Source: Effrenium voratum
Taxonomy: Eukaryota > Sar > Dinophyceae > Suessiales > Symbiodiniaceae
DNA: 64,000 bases
Reading direction: 5' to 3'
Assembly (NCBI GenBank): GCA_963377175.1
Contig: CAUJNA010000446.1
Span: 1,257,935 to 1,321,934 of the forward strand
Shown: in pieces, positions 603-46,969 of the stretch
How the letters are laid out: every line of letters begins with the position of its first letter
Position numbering within the stretch: position 1 is the stretch's first letter
Translations under genes and position numbers: made by a program
Notes under the pieces: generated by a model
What the model was told of the DNA's origin: nothing
The model's input: only the letters and a program-made list of their open reading frames with translations
The model's database searches: none

Positions 603-713
603 CTTCCATTTGCTGAATGAAATGAGTATGTTTTATTTTCCCTGGTTAGGGGAATCTATCACTACTGGACTATAAGTTGGTGTTGTTCCAGGGGGCGAAC
701 AAGCAAATGGAAG
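603..713. mobile_element. Introner-like element, family F, copy 1
   Basis: A 111 bp unit is bounded by inverted CTTCCATTTG and CAAATGGAAG. The inner block ATCTATCACTACTGG is shared with the copy at 45,953-46,051 and, slightly changed, with the copy at 32,981-33,087. The left flank reads GCAAG and the right flank TAAGG, so a GC-AG intron boundary at this insertion is possible. Confidence 0.75.
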
Positions 714-32980: not shown

Positions 32981-33087
32981 CTTCCATTGGCTGAAATGAG
33001 GCATGTGTTCTTTTCCCTTGGGTTTAAAGTTGGATTCTATCACTCCTGGAACTATGCTTATATTTTCCAGGCTTGGGCAAATGGAAG
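32981..33087. mobile_element. Introner-like element, family F, copy 2
   Basis: Ends CTTCCATTGGCTGAAATGAG and GGCAAATGGAAG, with the inner TCTATCACTCCTGG, match copies 1 and 3. 107 bp. Confidence 0.75.
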
Positions 33088-39271: not shown

Positions 39272-39541
39272 AGTAGTGCTGATCAGTGCCACCAGATGTT
39301 GGCCTTTTGAGCGCCTGCAAAAAGCACCGGAATTTGGGAAGCCTTCATCTGTTCCCGGGCGGATCTTGCCACCGGCCGATTGTTGTTTTGGTCGTAGGCC
39401 GAAGGTAACGTGGGGTCAAAAATCAGTGGCGTTGGAAATCCTGGGTGAACATGTGTCACTGCTTCTTCCATTACGACTGGAGAAGTGGCCTGGGATATTG
39501 AAGAAAATGCGGCCTGACGTAATAAGTCATTTATTCTCTCA

Positions 39542-39648
39542 GTTGTTCAGTGGCACCCTTTTTCCCCTTTTTTTGGGTGGCTGCCCCCACTAAAAATGGT
39601 CTTCCCCAAAAAGGGTTCCCTTTTTTTTCTCCAGGGTCACTGAACAAC
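39542..39648. mobile_element. Introner-like element, family D, copy 2
   Basis: Ends GTTGTTCAGTGGCACCC and GGGTCACTGAACAAC bound 107 bp, over 80% similar by eye to 28,959-29,062. The flanks CTCA and TGAG extend the inverted symmetry. Confidence 0.85.
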
Positions 39649-40414
39649 TGAGTTCTGTGCTTCAATCAGCATTTCCCTGGACTTCTTGTTTAGCGGGCCC
39701 GTGTGTCCCCTGCAACCAGCTTTCCAGCCAGTTGGCCAGAGAGAAACCATGGCAACTGGCCCTTTTGGTGGAAACCATTGAAAGACACCAACAGATGCAC
39801 AAACCTAGCAAATAACGAATTCTCGGACATGTGAAGTTTGGGGACCCCCGGTTCCTTTCTCGATTTCCCCGACATGAAGTGAGCAGAAGGCTTTCCTGAC
39901 CCATAGCTCCCATGGCGGGAAGACCTGCATGCTCGGTGGGTTTGGCTGCTTAAGCAAATGGTTGGTCCAACCCTAATGTCCAAAGCTCGTCGGACGAATG
40001 ATCTGGACAGGCAAGCCTGAAAGTCTAGGCAGACCCATGGCCTAGCCTTGGCCAACACTGTAGTGGTGCAATTGGGATTCTGCTGCAATTGGGAGAACCG
40101 CCCACTATTCCCCGTTTGCCACATGGTCGTCAAGCTCGTTTCGAACAACCTTCTAGGGATCCTGAGTCAGGGTCATTTACATGCTCCTATTTGTATCTCC
40201 CAGGAGAAAGCAGCAAGTTTGTTGGTGGGCGTGTCTCGGTGTCGAGTGTTTTATGAGGGCACCCTTTTCTGGTTTCTTTCAAGGCAAACCAGAATGAGAA
40301 CCACAGTTTTGGGGGTCGACAGGCACGCAGCCAAGTGGAACTTTGGCAGGAACCTGTCGCGGCCAGCATGTCATGTTATTCTGCTTGAAGTGTTTCTAGC
40401 ACAAGGGAGCAGGG

Positions 40415-43196: not shown

Positions 43197-43292
43197 GGGT
43201 GTGGCTCAGAAATCAGGGCCCACAATAAAACCCTGGTAAGTGGAAAAGTAGAGCAACGCCAGTCCCCTAGCTCTTAAGTTTTAGCCACACCC
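43197..43292. mobile_element. Introner-like element, family E, with ACAT direct repeats
   Basis: Inverted ends GGGTGTGGCTCAGAAAT and TTTTAGCCACACCC bound 96 bp. ACAT flanks both sides (43,193-43,196 and 43,293-43,296), consistent with a 4 bp target duplication. Confidence 0.8.
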
Positions 43293-44717: not shown

Positions 44718-44883
44718 AGAAACGCTGCGGTCTGGTGAAAACAAGCGCAGATGAGAAGCCAAAAGTTATCCAAAGTTTTTGAGATTCGCTGCGGTCTGGT
44801 GAAAACAAGCGCAGATGAGAAGCCAAAAGTTTTTGAGATTCGCTGCGGTCTGGTGAAAACAAGCGCAGATGAGAAGCCAAAAG
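44718..44883. repeat. Three-copy tandem repeat, about 55-65 bp
   Basis: GAGA(A/T)(A/T)CGCTGCGGTCTGG then TGAAAACAAGCGCAGATGAG and AAGCCAAAAG occurs three times, nearly identical. Copies 2 and 3 share a TTTTTGAGATTCG junction. Confidence 0.9.
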
Positions 44884-45952
44884 GCAGGGAGGTTTCTAGA
44901 GCGACGCTGCCAGAACTTGGGAAAGCAAGCAGAGCAACCTCCTAAAGGCAACCGTCATGTTTTTTGGCGCATGGAAGCGGGACGTACTGTTTGACCCATA
45001 CCAGGCGCTGTTAAGATATATAGTTGACATCCGTGCTGAGGTATGCTCTTTTGTTTGGAAGTTTGGCTTCTCATTTGTTGTGTTGCGGCAGGCATTTGGC
45101 ACACGAGAAGGACTGACATTTAGTGTGCGATACCGGGTAACAGTGTGAGATGCAGCGAACCTTCAATTCAGTTGGCAGAGGTGCAGGAGAAGGAAGATGA
45201 CACACAAAGCCAGATCAAATCCAGAGAACCTTTCTGCGACAGCAAGCTCAGTTCACCCTTGTGCTTGTGAAACATGACTGAAAACTGCAACAACACGTTC
45301 GTTTTGGGCACACTCAGACGACATGGACCAAGTTCGTTTGATGCTTTGACGAATGAAACTTGCGCCGGGTTATCTTCATCATGTGATTCACGCAGGGAGT
45401 CAATCCACAATCCAGGCGGCGACATGGGTGCGGCCTTCGATTACGAAGAGCCGGCCTCCGTTTGCACAAGCAGAGCTACCCCTATACCGCCGAAGATGGT
45501 AGCTGCAAGGCTTTTAGCTGTACCGTTGATCCCTGATCACGATGTCACCGGCTATGTGGATGCTCAGGCGGATGATGAACAAGCCTTGATGGATGCAGTT
45601 TCTCAGCAGCCAGTGTCTGTGGCAATTGAAGCAGACAGGGGAGCCTTCCAGAACTGGTGTTCATAGTTGGTGGAAAGCAGGTGAGGTCTGTGGGGGCAAA
45701 GTTTCTGTTGGCGATCCAAAACGATAATGTAACATTTAGATAATTTGATCATGTTCAAGTTTTTTCAACATCAGCATGCTATTGCCGTTTTGCTTAACTC
45801 CTTTACGGCAACTCGGAAGCACCAAACTCCCTCTGGGCTCCCAGGATTTGTGGAACCAAGTTGGATCATGGCGTGTGGTGGGCTATGGCTCTCAGTGGGG
45901 CAAGGACTGGCTGGTGAAAAACCGCTGGGGAACTTTCGGCGGGGACGGATAT

Positions 45953-46051
45953 CTTCCATTTGCTGAAATGAATATGTTTTATGTTCCCCTGTTTTTTTGG
46001 GCATCTATCACTACTGGCAATATATTTTCCAGGGTCTTAACCAAATGGAAG
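45953..46051. mobile_element. Introner-like element, family F, copy 3, inside the protease exon
   Basis: Ends CTTCCATTTGCTG and CCAAATGGAAG bound 99 bp. ATAT flanks both sides (45,949-45,952 and 46,052-46,055). Removing the element and one ATAT joins GGDGY to VKLERGG in frame, exactly as in papain-family proteins. The flank gives an AG at the element's end for splicing. Confidence 0.88.
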
Positions 46052-46969
46052 ATATGTGAAGCTGGAACGTGGCGGGGATCTTGAATACAGTGCCTCATCC
46101 GCTGGTTTCATGACTCACCTGGACCATGGCGGCTTGTAAGAGGCCTTTAAGAGGCAAATCTAGACATGGGCCAGGTGAGTCATTACTAGAGAATATGATT
46201 CAGTCTCATTATCATTTTGGTGTGATCCCCATGCTGCTTGCGCGGTTAGCCTATGCCATATCCTAAGCTTCAGTGACACGGCAAAAAATGGCTGGTGCAA
46301 ACTTTGTCGCCTACTTAGCCCCAATAGATACAACATATAAGTTGTATGTAAACGTGTATACATATATGTCCACTATACTGGCAGCCGGGATGCTAACGCC
46401 ATCTATCCCCAACAAAGGATTGGCAAACCATCCTATCAGCCTTGCAGGCAAACCCGGCGCCGGTGAGTGCGGGATCAAGTCAGAGGCCTCTTATCCCACC
46501 GTCTCCAGCGCGCCTTCTCCACCCTCACCTTCGCCGCCCTCGCCCTCCAAAGGACACTATGGCACACCGCCGTGTCAGGAGCATGAGTCGCCTTTCGAGG
46601 CACTGTTGCACAGCTCTCAGCGGTTTGGTGCTGTGTGTTGGGGGGGGAATCAATGTCTTTTTCGGATTGAACGAGTTAAGCGCACAAAAGACCGGACATG
46701 AATCATTGGGCCCCGTTTTGCACTGCTGCAGGTGGTCGGCAAAGGCCAGGTGTGCACTCCAAGTTGTGAGAATGGATGCCCGAGCGATGTGCCTGCGGGA
46801 ACTGCCGCCCGACCGCGCTGCGCGGACGATGCTACTGCGTCTTGAGCTGTTTCTTTTCCGGATGCCCAGCTGGTGCCAAGTGCGTTCACAACGCAGGGCT
46901 TTTCGCTATGGGGATGTGCCTTTATCCTGGTCAGGAGTCTGACGAGCTGACTGACATTGCTATTTGAAG

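Follow-up and report, generated by a model that had tools for sequence, protein, structure and literature searches.

A short inverted-repeat element in a decayed protease gene

We investigated a 64,000-nucleotide stretch of the Effrenium voratum genome (assembly GCA_963377175.1, contig CAUJNA010000446.1, positions 1,257,935 to 1,321,934; hereafter the window). Pfam analysis of 150 of the 372 open reading frames in the window matched papain alone. The papain-like protease copy and the element lying within it comprise the following features, where the hyphen in GGDGY-VKLERG marks the insertion point.

45415..45680, + strand: decayed papain-like exon, with frame shifts near 45464-45468 and again after 45527, and an in-frame TAG at 45664-45666
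45681..45844, + strand: putative intron A, GT-AG, drawn from the sequence
45845..46071, + strand: element-bearing exon (CGTKLDHGV / VVGYG...GGDGY-VKLERG), with a frame change at ~45875
45949..45952, + strand: left target-site duplication (TSD) ATAT, read directly
45953..46051, + strand: family F element, 99 bp, with perfect 10-bp terminal inverted repeats (TIRs), read from the sequence and assigned to its family by genome search
46025..46032, + strand: TTTTCCAG, candidate 3'-splice-site-like motif within the element, with its last base 19 nt from the element's 3' end
46052..46055, + strand: right target-site duplication ATAT, read directly
46072..46447, + strand: putative intron B, GC-AG, likewise drawn
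46448..46599, + strand: exon GKPGAGECGIKSEASYP...HYGTPPCQEHESPFE, placed by comparison with relatives
46600..46731, + strand: putative intron C, GC-AG, likewise drawn
46732..46952, + strand: C-terminal cysteine-rich exon of the pseudogene, with a frame shift near 46824-46830

The protein relative P0063 and the paralogue L016 served as references for the host reading frame. Counterparts of L016 exon 2 and of P0063 residues 1-106 were sought within the window and neither gave a match; residues 1-106 contain a cysteine motif that we take to be catalytic. Judged from its repeated frame breaks, in-frame TAG and missing N-terminal part, the host protease copy is a pseudogene. Assembly errors could cause single frame breaks, but hardly the absent N-terminal part. 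Upstream of the pseudogene, a 43-base unit occurs three times in window 44723-44883, spaced 64 and 54 bases.

The 99-bp element has the ends CTTCCATTTG...CAAATGGAAG, and the best Rfam match over it scored 18.3 bits, far below the cut-off of 90. The initial annotation had described a 99-bp element with inverted ends and ATAT on each side that splits the papain motif GGDGY-VKLERG, and the positions, read directly, bear this out. With the element and one ATAT deleted, the sequence reads GGA TAT-GTG AAG, encoding GGDGY-VKLERG, so that the empty site is regained as it had been claimed. The longer block GGDGY-VKLERGG named in the same annotation is correct at the split site, but its final GG after VKLER is probably itself split by an intron (a frame-keeping GC-AG intron can be drawn from 46072).

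Paralogues of the protease were then compared at the insertion position. Ten other places were found in the genome, and in the paralogous loci examined from among these the position was uninterrupted (9/9), reading GEQGF-VKLERG in L014, L016, L017 and L018 and GENGY-IRMKRG in L010-L013 and L015; the nine loci represent about three independent sequences, several being near-identical. Since these paralogues from the same genome lack the element, its insertion is derived. The motif was also continuous, by a loose pattern, in 113 of the 120 listed protein relatives, with one of the seven exceptions being truncated. The best protein relatives of the window protease include marine eukaryote transcripts, some of them labelled dinoflagellates. 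Genes of this papain family occur in tandem arrays (L014 and L016-L018 on C1221 and C722; L010-L012 and L015 on C1213). Most of the catalytic domain is intron-free in the C722/C1221-type protease, and introns lie within it in the C1213 type.

Family F in the genome

Genome searches covered the 1.156-Gb assembly of 3,699 contigs. The first 19 bases of the family F element gave 958 exact matches genome-wide (520 on one strand, 438 on the other), versus 0 for the reversed control of the same pattern. In DNA searches, the best 40 of 1,116 candidates were scored, and 40 of 482 when the copy at 603-713 was used as the query. Removal of five duplicates and five weak-ended copies from 70 loci left 60 non-redundant copies, selected by a rule of at most three mismatches per TIR end; they are the copies closest to two of the window copies, and hence a non-random sample, outside which the window copy at 32981 falls.

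The initial annotation had proposed comparing family F copies with 4-bp duplications. Among the 60 sampled copies the duplication was exact in 24, against 0.23 expected from equal base frequencies, and it matched at three of four positions in 18, at two in 8, at one in 8 and at none in 2. Exact 5-bp flank matches were found in just 2/60. The 958 exact 5' ends against none for the control, together with the excess of target-site duplications over expectation, argue that family F is not a chance assembly of motifs. The two sister copies that had been reported in the window are both real, with flanks that match at only three of four positions:

603..713, + strand: 111-bp sister copy of family F, flanked by CAAG and TAAG (3 of 4 bases alike)
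32981..33087, + strand: 107-bp sister copy of family F, flanked by GCAA and GCCA (3 of 4 bases alike)

Family F is a short, non-autonomous, MITE-like TIR DNA transposon of ~110 bp with a 4-bp target duplication and several hundred to a thousand copies. Terminal inverted repeats, a duplication of fixed length, a dispersed multi-copy family and an empty site in relatives were all found, and in shortness and copy number, too, family F resembles MITEs; it differs from them in its apparent strong sense orientation relative to genes.

Family F copies and coding exons

To describe the sequence around the copies, we used a junction codon score trained on papain paralogues. Known coding tiles (n = 20) scored 20 to 54, with 14 of the tiles taken from L014, a close duplicate of the training gene, 5 from a gene related to the training genes, and 1 from L048, which had been picked out by this same score. 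Among the 60 sampled copies the junction score exceeded 0 in one, which was the 45953-46051 copy in the pseudogene. The sampled copies thus do not generally sit in coding exons, and the 45953-46051 copy is the exception of the sample, lying in formerly coding sequence; a minority of copies, perhaps a few dozen, may be intronised.

At 75 bp, junction codon scores were above controls on both strands (p ~1e-6 sense, ~1e-10 antisense), an excess that we attribute to G+C. With 45 bp, scores above 5 were reached by 5% of junctions and 3% of controls. The G+C content was 0.52-0.56 within ~150 bp of family F copies, compared with 0.48-0.51 farther away, and coding-like 75-bp windows located 40-115 bp to the left of the element made up 0.17 on the sense and 0.10 on the antisense strand, compared with 0.00-0.10 farther out (72 loci). 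Taken together, the junction scores, the nearby G+C and the coding-like windows to the left suggest that family F copies tend to adjoin exons. G+C-rich, gene-near sites are a tendency reported for introner families and no unique mark (PMC9860276, in the portion available to us).

The composition of the duplications was also analyzed. Duplications starting with GT, GC or GA accounted for 4 of the 24 exact ones. Genome-wide, GTNN duplications numbered 101/958, versus 59 expected from the flanks (1.7-fold, p 3e-7). The second duplicated base shows a weak preference for T (28/60), with GT accounting for 4 of the 28 sampled copies that have T there, and this preference may explain the GTNN excess. 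Where GTR precedes the 5' end (20 copies, mostly lacking an exact duplication on the opposite side), open frames were not in excess. Pfam analysis of the 150 longest of 199 element-adjacent open reading frames identified one PPR and one DUF1450 member. Open reading frames across joined flanks (37 copies; mean 134 aa versus 120 in controls) were dropped as a coding test owing to low power, given the shortness of exons and the chance openness of frames rich in G+C. At L093, the family F copy is flanked on both sides by GTGA without mismatch and contains a long run of A; a GT donor is possible there, with no coding junction evident.

Possible splicing at the insertion site

The empty site is regained by six different removals of 103 nt, whose ends are GA-AA, AT-AG, TA-GA, AT-AT, TC-TA and CT-AT. 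None of the six has a GT/GC/GA-AG pair, and they are unlike the three introns inferred in the host itself, which end GT-AG, GC-AG and GC-AG. The usual intron boundaries of Symbiodiniaceae are GT-AG plus GC/GA-AG (PMC11453091, available in part). The ATAT duplication does not start with GT, GC or GA and cannot supply a usual donor. The initial annotation held that the insertion had created an intron whose 3' AG is supplied by the element; with no GT/GC/GA-AG pair among the six removals and a pseudogene as host, this claim finds no support. Nor does the preserved frame, which had been offered as evidence, carry weight, since the target is regained on excision of any insertion flanked by target-site duplications, a trivial outcome of target duplication.

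The sequence at 45953-46051 is most likely one copy of a MITE-like TIR transposon that landed, in sense orientation, within an exon of a protease copy of the papain family. On this reading, a transposase acting in trans would have made a 4-bp staggered cut, gap repair of this cut would have yielded the ATAT repeat, and the copy would not be spliced out in the manner of an ordinary intron. The host copy may have been dead beforehand, or it may have been killed by the insertion together with other lesions, in either order. Family F could give rise to introns where the duplication begins with GT, GC or GA, a start that the 45953-46051 copy lacks.

A variant compatible with this explanation, which we consider somewhat unlikely, is that a protease gene still functional at the time was killed by the insertion, with the other lesions coming later. 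The TIRs and the duplication are intact while the gene has several lesions, and an insert of 103 nt, if retained, is not divisible by three, both in keeping with this order; however, the absent N-terminal part and the frame breaks suffice as an earlier cause of death, and one genome cannot give the order of the lesions.

It is improbable that the element is a true introner spliced with non-canonical AT-AG ends, perhaps aided by a hairpin as proposed for Amoebophrya introner elements. The removal with AT-AG ends, 45949-46051, does terminate on the element's own AG, and the element arms with the palindromic ATAT fold as RNA into a 14-bp stem (z-score -2.73). Non-canonical introns with 3-5-nt direct and 8-20-nt inverted repeats are described for Amoebophrya in the portion of PMC7789003 at hand, the layout of family F equals that of Symbiodinium introners as far as PMC9860276 was available, and most family F copies appear to be sense-oriented. 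Against this reading stand the pseudogene host, which leaves no message to preserve, the lack of a GT/GC/GA donor among the six removals, and the junction score, which is 0 or below in all 59 remaining copies of the sample. A U12 RNA, sought in view of a U12-type reading of AT-AG, gave no match, but control genomes gave none either, so this negative carries no weight.

That the insertion is tolerated through other splice sites, with an upstream donor and an acceptor in or beyond the element so that part of the exon is skipped too, is highly improbable: 40 frame-keeping GT/GC/GA-AG pairs lie near the site, and the acceptor-like TTTTCCAG is present in the element, with CCAG ending 19-22 nt upstream of the 3' end in 52/60 sampled copies, but so many pairs would be expected from motifs this short, and the frame is broken elsewhere in the host anyway.

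Comparison with known introners

The preferred reading, in which the transposon copy would not be spliced out like an ordinary intron, was compared with described introner systems. Symbiodinium introners that combine 4-bp target-site duplications, TIRs and an AG at the end have been described before; in these, the duplication provides the donor and the element carries the 3' splice site (Gozashti et al. 2022, PMC9860276, in its available portion). Family 1 of the Symbiodinium microadriaticum introners described there resembles family F in its dinoflagellate host, its length of 115 bp (from the coordinates in that paper), its TIRs, its 4-bp duplication and its element-borne 3' splice site (a candidate one in family F), a likeness of layout drawn from the description and not from sequence. 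The S. microadriaticum copies are annotated introns according to the same partial source, whereas at the present locus an ATAT without a donor lies in a pseudogene, and 59/60 sampled junctions are non-coding by score.

Amoebophrya introner elements (Farhat et al. 2021, PMC7789003, available in part) are similar to the present case in having inverted repeats beside short direct repeats, and in the non-GT-AG ends that would result here if the element were spliced. The Amoebophrya introns are supported by RNA-seq and carry no family-specific inverted repeat, whereas family F has one conserved TIR and is described here from DNA sequence. Recently active introner families are also recorded in several dinoflagellates by Roy et al. 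2023, Curr Biol (through the available part of PMC11453091). The locus serves as a warning that TIRs, a target-site duplication and a restored frame do not demonstrate splicing, and that an apparent introner can be a transposon in a pseudogene.

Orientation of family F and other repeats

The strand of the copies was examined in relation to the surrounding sequence. When 1-kb flanks were read in the direction of the element, T exceeded A in 55/60 loci and G exceeded C in 46/60. The sense strand likewise had T>A and G>C in all eight paralogue gene loci (four contigs, partly overlapping). Across 80 loci, namely the 60 sampled copies and the 20 in which GTR precedes the 5' end, the best coding segment was on the element strand in 60 (p 9e-7). 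Two loci had recognizable exons beside the copy, both in sense. In the right flank of L035 a PPR-repeat exon lies ~35 bp past the family F copy (E 5e-5, below the Pfam cut-off), and at L048 an exon lies ~60 bp to the left (Pfam CoA_binding at just E 0.008, below cut-off). We take the L048 exon to be that of ATP-citrate lyase, and the family F copy there is probably intronic and in sense. PPR codon motifs proved unhelpful as strand markers (49 places), being too distant from the listed copies.

The three window copies of family F (starting at 603, 32981 and 45953) are all on the + strand. Neighbouring listed family F copies on the same contig agreed in strand in 32/36 pairs within 200 kb and in 42/49 at any distance; strand-agreement counts used the first 100 listed places per family plus nine for family F (six from C280-C492 and the three window copies). 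The plain, unoriented MITE idea for family F was dropped after the strand counts and the flank asymmetry; most copies are sense-oriented, which a neutral MITE does not predict and which counts against the preferred reading.

A second TIR family, unrelated to F, served for comparison, and a third inverted repeat at 43197-43292 was rejected as a control family, being single-copy.

39538..39652, + strand: family X copy, target-site duplication TTCT, comparison family

Family X has arms CTCAGTTGTTCAGTG and 819 exact 5' ends genome-wide. In a set made up of the window copy and L101-L120, of which L102 and L103 share one flank, the 4-bp duplication was exact in 18/21 and T exceeded A in 16/21 (p 0.05). 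The best 40 matches, the query itself aside, were 92-96% like the query; with copies more uniform than those of F, family X is probably the younger family. Family X copies agreed in strand with one another in 16/16 pairs within 200 kb and in 25/27 at any distance, and with the nearest family F copy in 26/26 and 34/40, respectively, where the agreement of the in-window pair follows from the choice of reference strand and is to be discounted. Ten other flank repeat clusters, some of which may be pieces of one repeat, were mostly one-sided as well (0:7, 0:7, 1:6, 0:6, 6:0, 1:5, 1:3, 2:2, 0:4 and 0:4). Because family X and other repeats share it, the one-sidedness is not special to family F and follows long domains.

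Genes in Symbiodinium are arranged in unidirectional blocks (PMC8110479, available in part), and such blocks would be the obvious correlate of the shared orientation. The evidence points to the orientation that repeats share over hundreds of kilobases being the sense direction of the genes. We tentatively suggest, as a possibility, that short interspersed elements, including TIR transposons, enter or survive in one orientation that is set by the direction of transcription or replication of gene blocks. The portions of PMC9860276, PMC7789003, PMC8110479 and PMC11071213 that were available contain no description of such an orientation lock; Roy et al. 2023 lay outside this scope, and the lock may be in print there. 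If it is true, an element with a 3'-splice-site-like sequence would always land the right way round in genes, which would help to account for the frequency with which transposons turn into introners in dinoflagellates; this by-product carries more weight than the insertion finding itself.

The cause of the lock may be either directional insertion (at a transcription bubble, an R-loop or a replication fork) or removal of antisense copies. If it acted at insertion, an unusual integration bias would feed directly into the origin of introners. AATAAA occurs on the antisense strand in 32/60 family F copies and on the sense strand in 2/60, and this, together with the conserved CCAG near the 3' end, favours selection against antisense copies. 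In the same vein, the window copy of family X carries CCAG with a pyrimidine tract toward its 3' end. Selection alone is disfavoured by family X, which is probably younger and yet as one-sided as family F in strand agreement.
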